NCBI GenBank assembly: GCA_021741145.1
Contig: JAIOYK010000026.1
Span: 1-64,000, forward strand
Direction of reading: 5' to 3'
DNA: 64,000 nt
From: Rhodospirillum sp.
Lineage (GTDB): Bacteria > Pseudomonadota > Alphaproteobacteria > Rhodospirillales > Rhodospirillaceae
The first letter of the stretch is position 1. Each line of letters begins with the position of its first letter. Of this stretch, positions 18,010-53,696 are shown one piece after another. The position numbers and the translations under genes are program-made. The notes under the pieces are model-generated. The model saw only the letters and a list, made by a program, of their open reading frames with translations. It searched no databases and was not told the DNA's origin.

Positions 18010-18576
18010 TCACAGGATCGATCGAAAAACCGCTGTCACTTGATCGGTCGTAAGCCGAGGCCCCTGCCCGACCGCGTGCATCAATCCGATCCCGTCGATC
18101 AATCCGGCGCAGGTCTCGATGGGAAACTCTTGGCGCCGATCCGCGATCAACCCGAAGAAGAAAGCGATCGGTCGGCGCGCCGCGGCGGTCAATCTCTCTC
18201 CGACTCCCGCCAGATCGTCCTGACGCGTCGACGCCAGGGTCAGTTCCATCCTGGCCAGAAACAAAGGACGCGAGGCATCCGCGTAGCTCACCAGTTCCCG
18301 CGCGACATAGGCAACGGCCTCGTCCATCCCCCCGGTCGCCACCGCTTCAGCGAAGCCGATTTGAAGGTCATCGCAGTCCTTTTCCAACATCGCCGCGAGA
18401 TGGTCCGATGCGGCCAGAAGCAAAGCGGCCTTTTTCGGAAAATAGTAGGTACTGGACCCCCTTGGCAGTCCAGCGGCATCGTCCACGGCGCGGTGCGTCA
18501 CTCCCGCGAGCCCCCGCGTCGCGAGAATATCGATAACGCAATCCAGAATCGCCTCGCGGCGGCCGCTTTTCTTCAT
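18010..18576 (-). CDS. TetR family transcriptional regulator
   Basis: N-terminal HTH: REAILDCVIDILATRGLAGVTHRAVDDAAGLPRGSSTYYFPKKAALL. Confidence 0.9.
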   Translation of the reverse strand: MKKSGRREAILDCVIDILATRGLAGVTHRAVDDAAGLPRGSSTYYFPKKAALLLAASDHLAAMLEKDCDDLQIGFAEAVATGGMDEAVAYVARELVSYADASRPLFLARMELTLASTRQDDLAGVGERLTAAARRPIAFFFGLIADRRQEFPIETCAGLIDGIGLMHAVGQGPRLTTDQVTAVFRSIL

Positions 18577-18587
18577 TGATCCCCACC

Positions 18588-18603
18588 CTCTACAAATGTA
18601 GAG
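18588..18603. promoter_or_regulatory. palindromic operator candidate CTCTACA-AA-TGTAGAG
   Basis: 7-bp perfect arms in the divergent tetR/ridA intergenic region. Confidence 0.7.
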
Positions 18604-18651
18604 TTTTTCACATCAAATGACAAAACATCCCATAAGAGGACGCTTTCAACC

Positions 18652-19059
18652 ATGTCACGACCCATCACGCGCATAAACCCCGCGACCCTGCCACCCACCG
18701 GTGATTTGGGGTATTCGCAGATCTCCATCGTGGAACCCGGTCGCATGGCCTATATCTCCGGCCAAGTCGCTTTGCGCCCCGACGGAGCACCGGTTCCCGA
18801 CGATCTCGTCGCACAGATGGAAATTGTCGCGACCAATGCGAAGGCGGCGCTGACGGCCATTGGCGCCACGCCCCAGGACGTGGTCATCGCCCGTGTTTAC
18901 ATGACCGATCTGACCCCTGACCGCCTGGAGGCGGTGATGCCGTCCTTCCTGGCGACGTTCGATGGCGCGCGACCCTGCGTGACCGGCGTCGGGGTCGCGG
19001 CCCTGGCCGCGCCCGACTTACAGATCGAGTTGGAAATGACCGTGAGACTGCCGGACTGA
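18652..19059 (+). CDS. RidA family (YjgF/UK114) protein
   Basis: RMAYISGQVALRPDG...RVYMTDL...CVTGVGVAALAAPDLQIELEM. Confidence 0.92.
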   Translation: MSRPITRINPATLPPTGDLGYSQISIVEPGRMAYISGQVALRPDGAPVPDDLVAQMEIVATNAKAALTAIGATPQDVVIARVYMTDLTPDRLEAVMPSFLATFDGARPCVTGVGVAALAAPDLQIELEMTVRLPD

Positions 19060-19095
19060 CCCGCGGTCCTGGCCCCGGTCCCGACCCAAACGACC

Positions 19096-20313
19096 CTACC
19101 CCTTCCGGGACCGGGCGAGGCGCGCGCCACCCCACAGGAAGATCCCCAAGGCCGCGACGGGGAAGAGGAAACCGGCAAGGCTCGCGCCCTTCCAATCCCC
19201 CACGGCGAAGGCCCAGCCGCCCAAAGCGGACCCCAAGGCGCCCCCCATGAAGAAAATCGCCATGTAGAGGCCGTTCAACCGCCCCCGGATTTCCGGCGCC
19301 TGGGAGAAAATGACCCGCTGATTGACCACCAGATTCATGGTGACACCGAAATCGATCAGGATGGCCGCGGCCACCACCAACCCGAGAGCCAGGTTTGAGC
19401 CCGTCTCTCCCAGAAAAGTCATAGGGAAGGACAGGGCAACCATGCACATGGCGGTGATACTGGCGGAAAAACCCCAGCCCCGGTCTGCGATCCGCCCGGC
19501 GATGGGCGCCGCCACGGCCCCGGCCACCCCGGCCAGGGAGACCCAGCCGATCCCCGCCAGCGACAGGTTGAAGGCCGGTCCGGACAGATAGAGGGGCGCC
19601 GTCGTCCAAAAGAGGCTGAAGGCGGCGAACAGCCCCGCATGGGCCAAGGCCCGGCGCCGCAAGTCGGGCATGGTCAGGATCAGGCTGACCATGGACAGCA
19701 TCAGGTCGCCATAGCGGGGCTTTGGATTGGGGTCCCGGCGGGGAAGAAAGAAGCGGTGAACGACAAGCAGAACCACCATGGCCCCGGCGGACAGGAAGAA
19801 AACCGCCTGCCAGGACAACAGGTCGGCGATGAAGCTCGACAGGGGCCGGGCGGTCATGATGCCGAGCATCAGGCCGCTCATGACATTGCCCACCACCCGA
19901 CCGCGAATGGCTTCGGGCGCCATATGGGCCGCGAATGGCACCAGGACCTGGATGCCGACCGATCCCAAACCGACCACGAACATGGCCAGCAGGAACAGCC
20001 CCCCACTCGGTGCCAGGGCCACGCCCATCAGACCGGCCCCGGCCAGGACAAGCAGGGTCAGAACCAACCGCCGGTTCTCCACCCGATCCGCCAGGGGCAC
20101 GATCAACAGCAACCCCAGGACATAGCCCACTTGGCCGAGGGTAACGATCAACCCCTGGGCTTCCGGCGTCAGCGCGAGATCCCTGGCGATGGATCCCACC
20201 AAGGGCTGAGCGTAATAGAGGTTGCCCGCGATCAGCCCACAGGACAGAGCTAACAGGAAGGTCAGCCAGCCAATCCGCGCCGTGCCCGTTTCCGCGAATC
20301 CTGGCCCCGTCAT
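19096..20313 (-). CDS. MFS transporter
   Basis: 12-TM pattern; GNLYYAQPLVGSIARDLALTPEAQGLIVTLGQVGYVLGLLLIVPLADRVENRRL; start trimmed. Confidence 0.88.
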   Translation of the reverse strand: MTGPGFAETGTARIGWLTFLLALSCGLIAGNLYYAQPLVGSIARDLALTPEAQGLIVTLGQVGYVLGLLLIVPLADRVENRRLVLTLLVLAGAGLMGVALAPSGGLFLLAMFVVGLGSVGIQVLVPFAAHMAPEAIRGRVVGNVMSGLMLGIMTARPLSSFIADLLSWQAVFFLSAGAMVVLLVVHRFFLPRRDPNPKPRYGDLMLSMVSLILTMPDLRRRALAHAGLFAAFSLFWTTAPLYLSGPAFNLSLAGIGWVSLAGVAGAVAAPIAGRIADRGWGFSASITAMCMVALSFPMTFLGETGSNLALGLVVAAAILIDFGVTMNLVVNQRVIFSQAPEIRGRLNGLYMAIFFMGGALGSALGGWAFAVGDWKGASLAGFLFPVAALGIFLWGGARLARSRKG

Positions 20314-20529
20314 TGACCCAGAACCGCGAACCGAAGAAAGCGCCAGGGAACGCCCCAGGGAACGACAAGGACAATTTTCATCATAGTGCGCTATCCAAAT
20401 AAACAAAGGCCCCCCTCGCCAGGGGGCGGAACCAAAGGGGCCCATCGGATCGGAAGGGAGAAGCCCGCTCGAAGGCGGAGACATAGGGTGCGGGGTCCCT
20501 GGGCACAAGGGACCGGTTGGGGCGAGGCG

Positions 20530-22862: not shown

Positions 22863-24251
22863 CTAGCCCTCCTGCTCGGTGTTAAGGGTGATGGGGGTGT
22901 GGCCGTATCCCCCCTGCTCGTCTTGCCCGTGGGTCCCATGGGCCTCGTGGACATCCATCAGGGCGTTGGCCAGGGTGAAAGACAGGTCGCGGGTTCCACG
23001 GTATCCAATGGTGACCCGGTGGTTTGACCCCACCCGATCAACGATGGGAAAACCGGCTCGGAAATGGGGCACGCCCGCCCGGTGGGCAGGCAGTCGACCG
23101 TTGGCGTTGGCGATCATCAGGTCGCAGCCTTCGGCCCGGTCGGCCAGATCCTCCAGGTCACCAACCACGACCTCCGCGGTATCCAGCGCCGAGAGGAAGG
23201 GCGCTTCGGTCGGCACCACGACGGCCTGAAGCTGGGCCCCCATGCCGGACACAAGGGTGGCATAGGCCCAAACCATGTCCGGCTCTCCGGCGATGGCGAT
23301 CCGCGCGCCCCCGAAGGCGAAATGGCTGTCCATCAGGGCATCGACAAGCTGGTTGCGCTGGCGGCGCAGGCGGGTGGGCACGGGACGGCCGGAGACCTGG
23401 GAGAGTACCGTCATCAGCCTGTCCACGGCCTCCAGACCGGTCAGGCGATCCAACTGGGTGGTGGGCACGCCGGTGCGCGTCTCCAGGGTCTCGCCGGAGA
23501 GGCGCATGTGCTCGCCAATGGCGATCGTCGCCTTGGCCCAGCCCATGGCGCGGATCTCGTCCAGCGTCGTGCCCCCCAGGGTGGTGGGGATCCAGGTATC
23601 GGGCACATGGCCGTCCAGGGATCCCGACAGGTCCGGCAGGATGGTGGCCTCCAGTCCGAAGCACGCGATGATGTCGCGCAGTTCGTCGATATCGCCCGGC
23701 GTCATATGCGACCCGGCCAGGACATTGACGCGGTTCTGGCTGGAGGGTGCCTTTTCCTCGGGCACCAGGGTCTCGATAATGGCCTTGACCGCCTTGCCCC
23801 AGCCCATTTCCAGGCCACCGGAGAAGTCCGGCGTCCGCACGGGCACGACGACCACGTCGTCCAGCTCGCGGTTGCGGGCACGAATCAGCTTGAGGTCGCC
23901 GATCATGTCCTCGCCCCGGGTTTCCGTCAGCCCCGTGGAGGCCAGACCGATCAGTTTGGGCTGGGCGCGCTTGACCACGTTGACCAGGGCCTGCTCCACG
24001 TTTTCCATGCCGCCGAGGATGGTACTCACCTCGCTCATGGCCGTGGTTTGCAGGGGGATGGCCTCGCGGAAATGGCGGACCAGCATGACGAGGGCGAAGG
24101 CCGTGCAACCCTGGGAGCCGTGGAACAGGGGCATGGAGCCCTCGACGCCCATGAAAGCCATGGCCGCGCCCAGGGGAGCGGAGGTCTTCAGCGGGCTGAC
24201 CGACAGGGCCTTGCGGACCTTCGTCACCGATGCGGGGGCGTGGTGGGTCAT
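22863..24251 (-). CDS. nifN: nitrogenase FeMo-cofactor biosynthesis protein NifN
   Basis: LKTSAPLGAAMAFMGVEGSMPLFHGSQGCTAFALVMLVRHFREAIPLQTTAMSEVSTILGG; start overlaps the nifE stop. Confidence 0.95.
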   Translation of the reverse strand: MTHHAPASVTKVRKALSVSPLKTSAPLGAAMAFMGVEGSMPLFHGSQGCTAFALVMLVRHFREAIPLQTTAMSEVSTILGGMENVEQALVNVVKRAQPKLIGLASTGLTETRGEDMIGDLKLIRARNRELDDVVVVPVRTPDFSGGLEMGWGKAVKAIIETLVPEEKAPSSQNRVNVLAGSHMTPGDIDELRDIIACFGLEATILPDLSGSLDGHVPDTWIPTTLGGTTLDEIRAMGWAKATIAIGEHMRLSGETLETRTGVPTTQLDRLTGLEAVDRLMTVLSQVSGRPVPTRLRRQRNQLVDALMDSHFAFGGARIAIAGEPDMVWAYATLVSGMGAQLQAVVVPTEAPFLSALDTAEVVVGDLEDLADRAEGCDLMIANANGRLPAHRAGVPHFRAGFPIVDRVGSNHRVTIGYRGTRDLSFTLANALMDVHEAHGTHGQDEQGGYGHTPITLNTEQEG

Positions 24252-25711
24252 TATTCGGCGGCTCCTGCCAGGGGGGTGGCGGCGGACGCGGTGTGGACTG
24301 GGGTCAGGGCGACGGGCACCTCGTCCCAGGGCGCGGGCAGGCGCACCTGCTCCCAAACCGGATTGTTGATCTCGATATCCATCTGGCGAACCATCTCGAT
24401 CATGCCCGCGTAGCCTTCGAAACCCGCGTGGCGTTCCTGGTTGATGTCCATCCAGGCGGTGCGGGCCTTCAGGGCGACAAACTGGGAGCGGCCACCGGAC
24501 AGCATGATGTCCGCCTCGCCGTCCTTGAACATGCGGTACATCTCGCCGTTGGGAATGGAGCCGAACAGTTCGCCCATCTTGCCCGTGGTATTTTGCTGAA
24601 GGGCCCGCTTGGCCTTGCCCTTGTCGTCCTCGGTGGACTTGCGAACCGAGGTGCCGATGACCTCCATGCCCATTTCCTGGAGGGCATGGACCACCGACCA
24701 GCTTTTCACGCCACCGGTGTAGAGCAGCACCTTCTTGCCTTCCAGGCGCGGCTTGTACTCCGCCATGGCGGCCCAGGCCTTGGCTTCCTCCTCGGCGATC
24801 AGGGCCTCGGTCCGGTCGATCAGATCGGCGTCGGCGCCCCGCTCCACCAGCATTTTCGCGATGGTGCGCAGGGACAGGCTGGTGTCGCCGATGCCGTAGA
24901 AGGAGCCCTCGAAATAGGGGATGCCATATTTTTCGCGCATGCCCCGGCCCAGGTTGATCATGGCCTGGGAGCAGACCATCATGTTGACCTGGGCGGTATG
25001 GGCCGCGGCGATGTCCACGTAGCGGGACCGCCCTGTAATGCAGGCGCGGATACGGATGCCCAGGCGCTCCAACAGCGGTTCCACCGCCGCGAACTCCCCG
25101 GCCACGTCGTATTCGCCGATGATGTTGATATCCGTGGAACCCACATCGTCGGGCTCCAGGGTGCCGACGACGTGGTCCAACAGAGCCTGAGCGCCCAACT
25201 TGTTCCCGAGGTTCTTGGAGCCGACGAAGCCCGGTGCGTTAACCGGAATCACCGGCTTGCCCAGGCGCTCGGTGGCGACCCGGCAGACCGTGTCGATGTC
25301 GTCGCCGATCAGGGCGGGCACACAGGTCTGATAGACGAAAACCGCCGGAGGATCGTATTTGGAGATGGCATCCTTGATCGCCCTGTAGAGCTTCTTTTCG
25401 CCCCCGCCGATCACGTCCAGTTCCGACAGGTCGGTGGTGAAGCCCCAGCGGTAGATCATGGGTCCCTTGGTGCCCACGTTGCGGGTATCCCAGGAGTTGC
25501 CCTCGCAGGCGATGGGACCATGCACCAGATGGACCACGTCGGTCACCGGCTGCAGGGCGATCTTCGCGCCATCGAAGGCGCAGCCACCCGCCGCCGCGCC
25601 GGGGGTCAGGCCCTTGGTGGCGCAGCCCTTCTTCCGGTCCACGTCGGACTTCGCGCGATTCTTGTCGCAGTCCGGCTCGTTGAAGACACTGGCGATCCGG
25701 TCACTGATCAT
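24251..25711 (-). CDS. nifE: nitrogenase FeMo-cofactor biosynthesis protein NifE
   Basis: TPGAAAGGCAFDGAKIALQPVTDVVHLVHGPIACEGNSWDTR; upstream of nifN; start at MISDRI preferred. Confidence 0.95.
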   Translation of the reverse strand: MISDRIASVFNEPDCDKNRAKSDVDRKKGCATKGLTPGAAAGGCAFDGAKIALQPVTDVVHLVHGPIACEGNSWDTRNVGTKGPMIYRWGFTTDLSELDVIGGGEKKLYRAIKDAISKYDPPAVFVYQTCVPALIGDDIDTVCRVATERLGKPVIPVNAPGFVGSKNLGNKLGAQALLDHVVGTLEPDDVGSTDINIIGEYDVAGEFAAVEPLLERLGIRIRACITGRSRYVDIAAAHTAQVNMMVCSQAMINLGRGMREKYGIPYFEGSFYGIGDTSLSLRTIAKMLVERGADADLIDRTEALIAEEEAKAWAAMAEYKPRLEGKKVLLYTGGVKSWSVVHALQEMGMEVIGTSVRKSTEDDKGKAKRALQQNTTGKMGELFGSIPNGEMYRMFKDGEADIMLSGGRSQFVALKARTAWMDINQERHAGFEGYAGMIEMVRQMDIEINNPVWEQVRLPAPWDEVPVALTPVHTASAATPLAGAAE

Positions 25712-25835: not shown

Positions 25836-25868
25836 TGTCGTGTGACGAACAATGTCGGCTTTCCGACA
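25836..25868. promoter_or_regulatory. tandem NifA upstream activator sequences
   Basis: TGT-CGTGTGACGA-ACA (25836-25851) and TGT-CGGCTTTCCG-ACA (25853-25868). Confidence 0.88.
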
Positions 25869-26016
25869 TGGTTAAAGACCCTATTCCTGGTATAGGGTGG
25901 GGACGGTGTAAAAAGCCGTGACATCTGGACACCGCTTGGTGTAGAGACAATTTCACACTTCGTTTGGCATGAATGCCATTCGTATTACACGAAAAAACTG
26001 TTTAAAAGAGGCGCGC

Positions 26017-26907
26017 GTGAAGCACCTAGACTCCCTGGAAGCGGAAAGCATCCATATCCTGCGGGAGACCGCGGCCCAGTTCCAGCGACCCGTGCTGATG
26101 TATTCCATCGGCAAGGACAGCTCGGTGTTGATGCATCTGGCGCGCAAGGCCTTCTTCCCCTCCCGCCCCCCCTTCCCCTTCCTGCATATCGATACGACCT
26201 GGAAATTCCACGAGATGATCGCCTTTCGCGACCGCCGCGTGGCCGAGGAAGAGGTGGACCTGATCGTCCACACCAACCCGGACGGGTTAGAGAATAAGGT
26301 CACCCCCTTCACCCATGGGGCGGCCTATACGGATATCATGAAGACCCAGGCCCTGCGTCAGGCCCTGACGGCGGGCGGCTACGACGGTGTGATCGGCGGC
26401 GCCCGGCGGGACGAGGAGAAGTCCCGGGCCAAGGAGCGGGTCTTCAGCTTCCGCGACGCCCATCACCGGTGGGATCCGAAGAACCAGAAACCCGAACTGT
26501 GGAACACCTATAACGGCCGGACCAACAAGGGCGAGAGCGTGCGGGTCTTCCCGCTCTCCAACTGGACCGAGTTGGACATCTGGCTTTACATCCTGCGCGA
26601 GGGGATCCCCGTCGTCCCCCTGTACCTGGCCAAGGACCGCCCGGTGGTGGAGCGCGACGGCGCGCTGATCATGGTCGACGATGACCGCTTCCCCCTCCTG
26701 CCCAATGAAACCCCAATGATGAAGTCGGTGCGCTTCCGCACGCTGGGCTGCTACCCCCTGACCGGCGCCATCGAAAGCGAGGCCGCCACCCTCCACGAGA
26801 TCATCGCCGAAATGCTGGTGGCCCGAACCTCGGAACGCCAGGGGCGCCTCATCGACCAAGACCAGTCCGCCTCCATGGAACTGAAGAAGCAGGAAGGATA
26901 TTTCTAA
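26017..26907 (+). CDS. cysD: sulfate adenylyltransferase subunit 2
   Basis: [48 protein letters not shown] 26017 fits family N-terminus, ORF extends to 25969. Confidence 0.95.
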
Positions 26908-28862
26908 TGGACGGCACCCCTTCCAACGCAGCCCCCTCCGCCCACCCCTCCCTCGCCGCGCAACGGGTCCAGACCTACCTGGAAAAGCACGAGGACAAGG
27001 GCCTGCTGCGCCTGTTGACCTGCGGTTCCGTCGACGATGGAAAATCCACCCTGATCGGCCGCCTGCTCCACGACACCAAGCAGGTCTTCGACGACCTGAT
27101 GAGCGCCCTGGAACGGGACAGCAAGGTCTCCGGCACGACCGGTCCCGGACGGGTGGATTATGCCTTGCTGCTCGATGGTCTCCAGGCGGAGCGCGAACAG
27201 GGCATCACCATCGACGCCGCCTATCGCTATTTCAACACGGAGAAGCGGAAATTCGTCGTCGCCGACGCGCCCGGCCACGAGCAGTACACCCGCAACATGT
27301 GCACCGCGGCCTCCACCGCGGAACTGGCCATCCTGTTGGTGGATGCCCGCAAGGGGGTGATCACCCAGACCCGGCGTCACACCTATGTCTGCTCCCTGAT
27401 GGGGATCAAGACCGTTGTGCTCGCGGTCAACAAGATGGACCTGAGGGATTATGATCAGGGGGTCTTCGACGCCATCGTCGCGGCGTACTTGCCCTTCGCC
27501 GCGAAGCTGGGCATCGACACCGTCACCTGCATTCCCCTCTCGGCCCTGGAGGGCGACAACATCGTCGCCCCCAGCCCCCATATGCCCTGGTACACCGGCC
27601 CGGCCCTGCTGCCCTTCCTGGAGGAGGTGGACGTCGCCACCGACCGGGAGCACTCGTCTTTCCGCTTCCCGGTCCAATGGGTCAATCGGCCCAACCTGGA
27701 TTTCCGCGGGTTCTCCGGCACCGTGGTCTCCGGCGCCATTTCCGTGGGCGATGGGGTCAGCACCCTGCCCAGCGGTCAGAAGTCCAAGGTGGCGCGGATC
27801 GTCACCAAGGACGGCGACCTGGCGCGCGCCGTGGCCGGTCAGGCGGTGACCCTGACGCTGACTGATGAAATCGATGTCAGCCGCGGCGATATGCTGGTCC
27901 CGACCGAGGACCAGCCGGCCATGGGCGACCATTTCACCGCCAATCTGATCTGGATGGACAGCAACGCCCTGATGCCGGGCCGGGAATATTTGGTCCGCAT
28001 GGGGCCGCGTCAGACCCGGGGCCAAGTCACCTCCATCAAGCACAAGATCGACGTCAACACCATGGACGAGCGGCCGGCGCCGACCCTGGAACTGAACGAT
28101 GTGGGGCTGGTCAACCTGAGCATCGACCGCGCCCTGCCCTTTGACCCCTACACCGAGAATCGGGATACCGGATCCTTCATCCTGATCGACCGGCTGACCA
28201 ACGCCACCGTCGGCGCGGGCATGATCCAGTTCTCCCTCTGGCGGTCGACCAATCTGGCCTGGCAGCACCTGGAGATCGGGCCGGAACAGCGGGCCCGGCA
28301 GAAGGGCCAACGGCCCTGCGTGCTCTGGCTGACGGGCCTGTCCGGCTCGGGCAAATCGACCATCGCCAACCTGTTGGACAAGCGCCTCTACGCCGAGGGG
28401 CACCATGCCACCATGCTGGACGGCGACAACGTGCGCCATGGCCTGAACAACGACCTGGGCTTCACCGCCCAGGACCGGGTGGAGAACATCCGCCGGGTGA
28501 CCGAAGTGGCCAGCCTGATGGCCGACGCCGGGCTGATCACCCTGGTCTCCTTCATCTCCCCCTATCGGGAGGAGCGGAACTCGGCCAAGGTCCGCATTGG
28601 CGACGCCCGCTTCGTGGAGATCTATGTCAAGGCCGACGTGGCGACCTGCGCCGAGCGCGATCCCAAGGGCCTCTACAAAAAGGCCCTGGCCGGAGAGATC
28701 AAGAACTTCACCGGCGTGGACGCCCCCTACGAGGAACCCCTGGACCCCACGGTCACCGTGGACACGGCCAACAGCACGCCCGAGGAAGCCGTGGAATTGA
28801 TCCTCGACTGGCTGCGTGCCCAGGGCTTCCTGTCGGTCGAAGGGGACGGGTCGGGGATCTGA
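26907..28862 (+). CDS. cysNC: bifunctional sulfate adenylyltransferase subunit 1 / adenylylsulfate kinase
   Basis: GTPase [19 protein letters not shown] and C-terminal APS kinase [22 protein letters not shown]. Confidence 0.95.
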
Positions 28863-50942: not shown

Positions 50943-51021
50943 TGGCGGGCTTTCTACCGAGACGATGTCAAAGCCACATTATGGCACCCTGTCCCCCCCC
51001 TTCCAAGGCCGCCCGCGCGAG

Positions 51022-51483
51022 TCACGTCGCCAGACCGAACTGGATCTCCACTTCGTTCCCGGGATCCTCTGACCCCTTCCAGACATGGTAGACTTCTCGG
51101 CTTTCCCCGGAGAACCCCAGTCCCGAGGCCACGATTTCCTGGACCAGGGGTCCATAGCAATCCGGGAACAGGGACGAAAGGGGACCCCGATGGGTCCGCG
51201 TCGCGACACGAATGGGGGGGAGGGGCCGCGCGGCCCCGTCAACCACGGCCGTTTCGGAGGGGCGATGGACGGGGCGGCAGATTTCCCATCGGAAGAGGGT
51301 CTCCCCATCCTTGGGAAGGTCGTGGGAGACGAAGATCCAGGGACCGGAGGCGGTAAGGCCATCCTTGGCCACCCGCTCCTCGATCAAGGCACCGCAGTCC
51401 AGTCCCGCGGCCCCAATATCGGGAATGCGCAACCACCGCTCCAGCGACACCACCCACATATCGGCTGTTTGCTTGATTTCCAT
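51022..51483 (-). CDS. hypothetical protein, possible GyrI-like effector-binding fold
   Basis: MEIKQTADMWVVSLERWLRIPDIG...GLTASGPWIFVSHD...EVEIQFGL; start at ATG 51483 inferred; fold assignment weak. Confidence 0.5.
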   Translation of the reverse strand: MEIKQTADMWVVSLERWLRIPDIGAAGLDCGALIEERVAKDGLTASGPWIFVSHDLPKDGETLFRWEICRPVHRPSETAVVDGAARPLPPIRVATRTHRGPLSSLFPDCYGPLVQEIVASGLGFSGESREVYHVWKGSEDPGNEVEIQFGLAT

Positions 51484-51630
51484 GGCGATCTCCCGACACC
51501 ACCTCAACGGGTCTCGACCGACAGGATCAAGACAAGCCGTTCTACTCCCCCCCATGGGATCTATCAATGTGGTTGGCCGGATCACGAGCCGGTCAAAGGA
51601 CGGTCCTCCCCACCGTGAACCGGCCAAGTA

Positions 51631-51987
51631 TCAGCGCTGGGGCACGATCACCAAACGCTCGACCAGCTTGCCGGTCTTCATGTGGGTCTCGACGATCTCG
51701 TCGACGTCCTCGGCGGTTTTGGGGCGGTACCAGACGCCTTCCGGATAGACCACCATCAACGGCCCCGCGGAGCAGAAGCCCAGGCAACCCGAACCGGTCA
51801 GACCGACCTGCCCCATCAGGCCCTCGGTCTCCAACTTGGCGCCCAAACGCTCCCACAAAGGTTGGCCGCCCAGGGATCCGCAACTCCCCCGGGGGTGATT
51901 GGGGGGCCGTTGGGTGAAGCAAGCGAAGATATGGCGCTTGTAGACCTGGGGAAGCGTGAACTCGGCGGCGCTTTCGATGGCATCCAT
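51631..51987 (-). CDS. thioredoxin-like [2Fe-2S] ferredoxin (Shethna I type)
   Basis: CFTQRPPNHPRGSCGSLGG and GSGCLGFCSAGPLMVVYPEGVWY four-Cys pattern. Confidence 0.92.
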   Translation of the reverse strand: MDAIESAAEFTLPQVYKRHIFACFTQRPPNHPRGSCGSLGGQPLWERLGAKLETEGLMGQVGLTGSGCLGFCSAGPLMVVYPEGVWYRPKTAEDVDEIVETHMKTGKLVERLVIVPQR

Positions 51988-52050
51988 GGCGGCGTTCCTT
52001 CATGACTGGCCGGGCCTCGGTCCCGACGCGGGTGGATCGAGACCTGGGTT

Positions 52051-52066
52051 AGCAAAGGCCATGCCG
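52051..52066 (-). promoter_or_regulatory. sigma54 promoter for [2Fe-2S] ferredoxin
   Basis: Minus strand CGGCATGGCCTTTGCT; GG-N10-GC spacing correct. Confidence 0.7.
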
Positions 52067-52216
52067 CGGGGACTGACGCCTCCGATCCCTCCCTGTGGGA
52101 GCAAACTCCCAAAGCCCCCTCAATCTTTTGTTTCGAAAAGAAAAAAGGGAGTTTGGAAGCATGGCCTCCAACCGGATCCGGGCGGGAGCCCGGCTGGCCG
52201 CGAGGCCAAGTGCGTC

Positions 52217-52232
52217 TGTCGGCTTTTCGACA
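52217..52232. promoter_or_regulatory. NifA upstream activator sequence
   Basis: TGT-CGGCTTTTCG-ACA, one base different from the nifE-proximal UAS at 25853. Confidence 0.78.
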
Positions 52233-52586
52233 ATCAGGACCATTTTTGTCCGAAATAGAACAGGCCGCCGACGGAAATGCGCCGCTTTCGCCCGACCCGC
52301 TTCTTGCCGAGGTTCCGGCACCAACCGACCCGATTCGCGTTCCTTGCATGACACCCATGCATGATCGATATTTTAAACTCCATTCGAGCAATTGGTTTCG
52401 ACCTCCTATTTAGGCGGTTTGCATGGGGGAAATGCCTTGATTTTGTGCGCCGCCTTCGCAGGCGCACCCAAAAATGACATTTTTGTGCATCCACTCTTGT
52501 CGATTTTTTTAAACGTGCCATTGTCCGTTCCCAAGAGGGCGCCGGGTGGGCGTCAAGACGAACCTCTTGGGTAAGGACAAGCATGG

Positions 52587-53696
52587 ATGGGTGCGACGGA
52601 ACCTCTGGTCCGGTTCAAGGACGTTCGAAAGACCTATGACGGCGATACCCTGGTTGTGAAAAACCTGAACCTGGATATCGGAGATGGCGAATTCCTCACC
52701 ATGCTGGGTCCCTCGGGGTCGGGCAAGACGACCTCCTTGATGATGCTTGCCGGGTTTGAAGTCCCGACCCATGGGGAAATCCTGTTGGCTGGCGCCTCCC
52801 TGAAGAACACTCCACCCCACAAGCGCGACATCGGCATGGTGTTCCAAAACTATGCCCTCTTTCCCCATATGACCGTCGCCGAGAACGTGGCTTTCCCCCT
52901 GTCGGTGCGCGGCATCGGGAAAAGCGAGCGGGAAGAGCGCGCCGAAAAGGCCCTGGACATGGTCCGCCTGGGTGGCCTGGGCGCCCGGCGCCCGGCCCAG
53001 CTTTCCGGTGGCCAGCAGCAGCGCGTCGCGCTGGCCCGGGCCCTGGTTTTCGAACCCCGTCTGGTGCTGATGGACGAGCCCCTGGGCGCCCTGGACAAGC
53101 AGTTGCGCGAACACATGCAGATCGAAATCAAGCACCTGCATGACCGCCTGGGAATCACCGTGGTCTACGTGACCCACGACCAGTCCGAGGCGCTGACCAT
53201 GTCCGACCGGGTGGCCGTGTTCAACGACGGGATCATCCAACAGCTCGACAGCCCCCGGGACCTTTACGAAAGTCCGAACAACAGCTTCGTCGCCCAGTTC
53301 ATCGGCGAGAACAATATCCTCAACGGCACCGTGGAGAGCCTCGACGAAGGCTTCGCCGGGGTCCGCCTGGATGGGGGCGGCCATGTCCGCGCCCGGGCCG
53401 TCAACGTTGGGGGTGTTGGGGCCCGCACCTCGCTGTCCTTCCGACCGGAGAAGGTCCATATCGAGGGCATCGGCGCCGATCACGAGAACTACCTGCCCGC
53501 CCTGGTGGAGGAAACCATCTACCACGGCGACCACATGCGGGTCCGGGCCAAGGTCGACGGCAACGAGGATTTCACCGTGAAGATGCGGTACCGGTCCGGT
53601 CGCGAGGAACCCAAGGCCGGAGACGATCTGTTCGTCGCCTTCGCCGCGGAGGATTGCCTCGCCCTGGATCCGGTCGCACCCACGACCACGGCCTGA
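52587..53696 (+). CDS. potA: spermidine/putrescine-type ABC transporter ATP-binding protein
   Basis: [67 protein letters not shown]-terminal TOBE region. Confidence 0.88.
   Translation: MGATEPLVRFKDVRKTYDGDTLVVKNLNLDIGDGEFLTMLGPSGSGKTTSLMMLAGFEVPTHGEILLAGASLKNTPPHKRDIGMVFQNYALFPHMTVAENVAFPLSVRGIGKSEREERAEKALDMVRLGGLGARRPAQLSGGQQQRVALARALVFEPRLVLMDEPLGALDKQLREHMQIEIKHLHDRLGITVVYVTHDQSEALTMSDRVAVFNDGIIQQLDSPRDLYESPNNSFVAQFIGENNILNGTVESLDEGFAGVRLDGGGHVRARAVNVGGVGARTSLSFRPEKVHIEGIGADHENYLPALVEETIYHGDHMRVRAKVDGNEDFTVKMRYRSGREEPKAGDDLFVAFAAEDCLALDPVAPTTTA

Follow-up and report, generated by a model that had tools for sequence, protein, structure and literature searches.

Ferredoxins that accompany nitrogenase have been described in several nitrogen fixers. 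The [2Fe-2S] protein FdxD of Rhodobacter capsulatus, whose gene presumably adjoins nifH, has a plant/adrenodoxin-like fold that differs from that of the thioredoxin-like ferredoxins. Its production is NifA-dependent and it has been called a Shetna ferredoxin (PMC6925177); it is an accessory protein, dispensable for diazotrophic growth and tied to oxygen protection (PMC10936413, 2024). FeSI of Azotobacter vinelandii (Shethna protein I, encoded by fesI, Avin_01520; PDB 5abr) has two ties to nitrogen fixation: fesI is part of the major nif cluster, and expression of fesI is 2.3-fold up under N2 fixation (PMC8561814). A comparative regulon survey predicted NifA sites before alphaproteobacterial ferredoxin genes, including fer2 in Rhodospirillales (PMC4999443); fer2 may or may not belong to the FeSI family. 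Here, we describe a ferredoxin of the same thioredoxin-like [2Fe-2S] type as A. vinelandii FeSI, with the same four cysteines. The window (the whole stretch of 64,000 nucleotides analysed) comes from a nitrogen-fixing alphaproteobacterium and carries its gene alone with a predicted NifA/sigma54 promoter of its own, whereas fesI sits within the nif cluster. Helper genes of this kind are already known from other nitrogen fixers, and it is the solitary placement that is unusual.

The ferredoxin and its relatives

The features of the locus, with one nif gene of the window, are as follows.

22863–24356, minus strand: nifN frame
51022–51483, minus strand: ORF of 153 aa downstream of the ferredoxin and on its strand, without a family match
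51631–51987, minus strand: FeSI-type ferredoxin gene, 118 aa, assigned from PDB matches, NCBIfam scores, cysteine positions and the tree
51995–52000, minus strand: Shine-Dalgarno-like AAGGAA, 7 bases 5' of the ATG, read from the sequence
52051–52066, minus strand: predicted sigma54 (-24/-12) promoter CGGCATGGCCTTTGCT, a 16-mer with 9 of 11 consensus positions
52097–52110, no strand: GGGAGCAAACTCCC, a perfect inverted repeat that precedes the -24 element
52118–52130, plus strand: IHF-like site CCTCAATCTTTTG with an intact TCAA-N4-TTR core, lying between promoter and activator site; suggestive only
52217–52232, no strand: putative NifA upstream activator site 1, TGTCGGCTTTTCGACA, TGT-N10-ACA, 150-bp gap to the -24 element
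52247–52262, no strand: candidate NifA site 2, TGTCCGAAATAGAACA, TGT-N10-ACA, 180-bp gap to the -24 element

The initial annotation had placed a Shethna I-type ferredoxin at 51987–51631 on the minus strand, and the gene, strand and coordinates are correct. Similarity to solved members identifies the product as a thioredoxin-like (Shethna I/FeSI-type) [2Fe-2S] ferredoxin, with matches to PDB 1f37 from Aquifex aeolicus (E 1.7e-27, 99.2 bits, residues 18–115) and to 5abr, the A. vinelandii FeSI type (E 6.5e-17, 65 bits). All four cluster cysteines (C23, C36, C68 and C72, arranged C-X12-C ... C-X3-C) are present and align with those of 1f37 and 5abr. The protein scored below the curated cut-offs of both NCBIfam NF041612 (C. 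pasteurianum 2FeFd equivalog; E 2.1e-23, 82.8 bits, cut-off 150) and NF041613 (A. vinelandii FeSI equivalog; E 1.9e-22, 79.5 bits, cut-off 195) and is thus a relative rather than a member of these equivalogs; the latter score also indicates that it is not a close orthologue of A. vinelandii FeSI. The match to Pfam PF01257 (19.9 bits) likewise lay below the cut-off of 24.8. A search of its own genome found no second good copy.

A protein search of 84,980 genomes returned best matches from Methylocystis, Bradyrhizobium, Rhodoblastus, Afipia and one further proteobacterium, at 64–73% identity. The fetched flanks contained nif genes at all seven best-match loci (L004–L008, L010 and L011); at the Azorhizobium oxalatiphilum locus (66% identity) none were found within 8 kb. 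The seven proteins have the N-terminal LPQVYK and QPLW[ED]R segments in common with the window ferredoxin. Their genes lie near nif genes; the window gene is 26 kb off. A quick maximum-likelihood tree of 100 rows groups the window protein with these seven, all nif-linked (SH-aLRT 92); since the alignment is short (106 columns), details inside this clade are unsure. Other thioredoxin-like ferredoxins from Rhodospirillales and Burkholderiales belong to the same superfamily and retain the cysteines, but have 36–50% identity to the window protein, are mostly not nif-linked, and fall for the most part in a separate clade across a split with a support of 99. Among 148 related genomes, NifH was found in 43 (own genome included), and a ferredoxin with >50% identity was found in none except the genome itself. 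In G001, a congener that has NifH, no match to the ferredoxin was found at E 1e-10. In three genomes of another family (f21), nifH lies some 11.5 kb from the gene of a second Shethna-type ferredoxin that is more distant from the window protein (G092:C36, G126:C16 and G138:C1; 43–46% identity), so the nif linkage of Shethna-type ferredoxins may have multiple origins.

This organism has its nif genes dispersed over several contigs, and a lone gene under predicted NifA control accords with such scattering. Present in the window are fixABCX, nifW, nifV, an IscA-type gene, nifQ, a 4Fe-4S ferredoxin gene, a DUF269 gene, nifX, nifN and nifE, and the nearest of its nif genes lie ~26 kb from the ferredoxin; the distance of ~26 kb originally given for the nif block is right for nifE. 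The remaining genes are on other contigs: nifHDK and draTG-like genes (named by position and by similarity between relatives) on C78, and nifA on C32 (C32:107570–109315; 689.6 bits in a profile search, cut-off 528.85), where it adjoins nifB-fdxN. The fdxN-like product, a 61-residue two-[4Fe-4S] ferredoxin encoded directly behind nifB (L129:5517–5702), is the likelier nitrogenase electron donor. Within the window, a TetR/BetI-like regulator, a Rid-family gene and an MFS transporter (18010–20508) split the nif block between iscA-nifV and nifQ. Two TGT-N10-ACA sequences (25836–25868) occupy the gap that separates nifE from a CysD/CysNC-like sulfate-activation pair running divergently (25969–28862); NifA control might extend to sulfate activation, but no strict sigma54 site was seen on the plus strand. 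An alternative nitrogenase as a target of the ferredoxin was considered and not supported, the genome having a single full-length NifH-family match.

Promoter elements and their genome-wide specificity

The GG-N10-GC element reported at 52066–52051 is present on the minus strand as CGGCATGGCCTTTGCT, matching 9 of 11 consensus positions with a -24 box that begins CGG, not TGG. From its position, transcription is predicted to start at ~52040, leaving a leader of ~50 nt. The activator site TGTCGGCTTTTCGACA was described as almost identical to that of nifE, and a single base indeed distinguishes it from TGTCGGCTTTCCGACA, the nifE site at 25853. Two elements were absent from the initial annotation: the second TGT-N10-ACA at 52247–52262, and the IHF-like core at 52118–52130, one of five TCAA-N4-TTR cores in the window. 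The 150 bp between activator site and promoter compares with 45–90 bp at the nif operons of this genome; this longer gap and the CGG start of the -24 box speak against NifA control. The stretch from the NifA sites to the sigma54 promoter, in which no gene end is known, also contains a terminator-like hairpin (52153–52171, minus strand) and the inverted repeat at 52097–52110; scans of the window found no other occurrence of either. Inverted repeats allowing 2 mismatches were no commoner than chance in the window, and an Rfam scan of 51000–52700 gave one sub-threshold match only.

Single motifs were not informative in the window: TGT-N10-ACA was found 9 times against 4.96 expected and a loose sigma54 pattern 19 times against 25 expected, neither alone beyond chance. 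Because these single-motif statistics were not significant, a whole-genome core motif, a survey of sigma54 sites with activators and a joint simulation were used. When upstream regions were simulated, 1 of 20,000 with the composition of this intergenic stretch and 0 of 20,000 with that of the window contained a sigma54-like site preceded at 25–250 bp by TGT-N10-ACA; none had the arrangement with two upstream TGT-N10-ACA sites. The core TGTNGGNTTTNCGACA has three copies in the 5.47-Mb genome, at iscA-nifV, nifE and the ferredoxin, and every copy precedes a sigma54 site; its reversed control has none. Pattern searches of the whole genome returned 22 strict sigma54 sites, compared with 2 for the reversed pattern; sites looser than YGGCAY-N5-TTGCT were surveyed in the window and fetched loci. 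Only five of the 22, those of nifE, iscA-nifV, fixABCX, nifB and the ferredoxin, have TGT-N10-ACA 25–250 bp upstream, and reading the sequence flanking the other 17 revealed none in that interval. The nifH promoter, matched by a slightly looser sigma54 pattern, has one as well. A sigma54 site at another locus (L137) was rejected as a NifA target, its TGT-N10-ACA at 19 bp being judged too near.

The core motif, the paired sites, the simulation, the presence of NifA in the genome and the nif-linked clade strongly support, at the level of sequence, a predicted co-regulation of the ferredoxin with nitrogenase by NifA and sigma54. The earlier proposal of co-induction is thereby well backed by the genome-wide core, the sigma54-plus-activator sites and NifA itself. 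We expect with considerable assurance that expression would depend on NifA in vivo, and the protein would very likely be made only during nitrogen fixation.

Role of the ferredoxin and alternative readings

In three of the seven nif-linked loci (L007, L010 and L011), the ferredoxin gene is the last of a BolA-glutaredoxin-ferredoxin cluster, with TGT-N10-ACA 64–107 bp above a weak -24/-12 element before the first gene. These clusters lie near nifH in Bradyrhizobium and Afipia (L007 7300–8030, L010 7365–8004 and L011 1828–2489; the L007 BolA and glutaredoxin genes were recognised by similarity to the L010 proteins). Fe-S clusters are handled by BolA proteins and by monothiol glutaredoxins, a kind to which the glutaredoxins of these loci may belong, and the gene order favours Fe-S handling over electron donation; the link comes from other genera, and neither gene adjoins the window ferredoxin. 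On balance, we lean toward an accessory that handles Fe-S clusters or gives redox protection while nitrogenase is assembled and is not the main electron supply to NifH. More tentatively, the nif-linked FeSI clade may be a NifA-controlled Fe-S trafficking factor that partners a nif-specific BolA-glutaredoxin pair and has here been split off as a stand-alone NifA unit.

The initial annotation had proposed an electron donor or an Fe-S delivery partner. The BolA-glutaredoxin-ferredoxin clusters lend delivery indirect support, whereas support for donation is weak. A main donor role is less likely because the genome encodes FdxN, another 4Fe-4S ferredoxin and FixABCX (fdxN behind nifB, the 4Fe-4S ferredoxin gene in the nifE-nifQ block) and because the nifH-bearing congener G001 lacks the ferredoxin gene. 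Direct donation to NifH, alone or as a back-up, would suit a ferredoxin co-regulated with the nif genes, and the C. pasteurianum 2Fe-2S homologue docks the MoFe protein by Glu31, Glu34 and Glu38 (PMC8561814). In the alignment, the window protein retains one of these three acids as E46, which is E or D across the whole nif clade, but has P43 and A50 in place of the other two. Moreover, no known nitrogenase donor has a [2Fe-2S] cluster alone, and the NifA-controlled [2Fe-2S] FdxD is no electron donor (PMC10936413). We therefore regard direct donation as unlikely.

It is about equally doubtful that the ferredoxin transcript takes in the ORF at 51483–51022 as a functional nif partner. This ORF is on the same strand, 147 bp downstream, and a terminator scan detected no U-tract terminator in the gap; against this, the gap contains a strong predicted hairpin. 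The ORF has no Pfam or NCBIfam match at E 0.001, and Pfam at E 10 gave nothing over the cut-off. Its relatives were found in only 2 other genomes of 148 (45% and 34% identity), with no ferredoxin near either of the two loci. The suggested co-transcription is thus not supported, nor is a nif role for this ORF.

On the other side, a polyamine-type ABC operon runs divergently from 52587 onward and shares a 599-bp gap with the ferredoxin, which sits between this operon and a GhrA-like gene plus the orphan ORF. As the activator sites lie in the common gap, they could in principle serve the operon, or both directions. This is very improbable: the plus strand lacks a good sigma54 site toward the operon (the best has 6/11), and the operon is conserved in family members in which the left-hand genes of the window were not found beside it, so that its own control need not involve NifA. 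It is kept in G001, G010, G012 and G028, and the fetched regions of these four genomes contained neither the ferredoxin nor the ORF at 51022 nor the GhrA-like gene beside it. This arrangement fits the best reading of the gene's origin, a nif-type FeSI gene relocated or acquired in this lineage with its own predicted NifA/sigma54 promoter, although gain and loss would fit alike.

The chance-level single motifs in the window and the 26 kb to the nearest nif gene might suggest an ordinary housekeeping ferredoxin whose promoter motifs arose by coincidence, but this reading is very unlikely, given a joint motif occurrence of at most 1 in 20,000, the genome-wide specificity of TGTNGGNTTTNCGACA and the nif-linked clade.

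A probable satellite member of the NifA regulon

Collectively, the data make it probable that the ferredoxin gene belongs to the NifA regulon as a satellite and that its protein acts as a nitrogenase accessory. At low fixed nitrogen and low oxygen, NifA would become active and bind at 52217–52232, and perhaps also at 52247–52262. With the DNA bent, possibly through IHF, a short transcript would be made by sigma54-RNA polymerase positioned at 52066–52051. It would encode a thioredoxin-like [2Fe-2S] ferredoxin that belongs to the nif-linked FeSI clade and forms homodimers (we infer both the involvement of IHF and the dimerisation). While nitrogenase is assembled, this protein would most likely handle Fe-S clusters or protect against redox damage.

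What Shethna protein I-type ferredoxins do in nitrogen fixation is not yet settled. Because the copy described here stands alone under a predicted NifA switch, in a genome without a second good copy, it offers an easy deletion test, and the BolA-glutaredoxin link in relatives provides a specific hypothesis of Fe-S trafficking in place of the usual guess of an electron donor.
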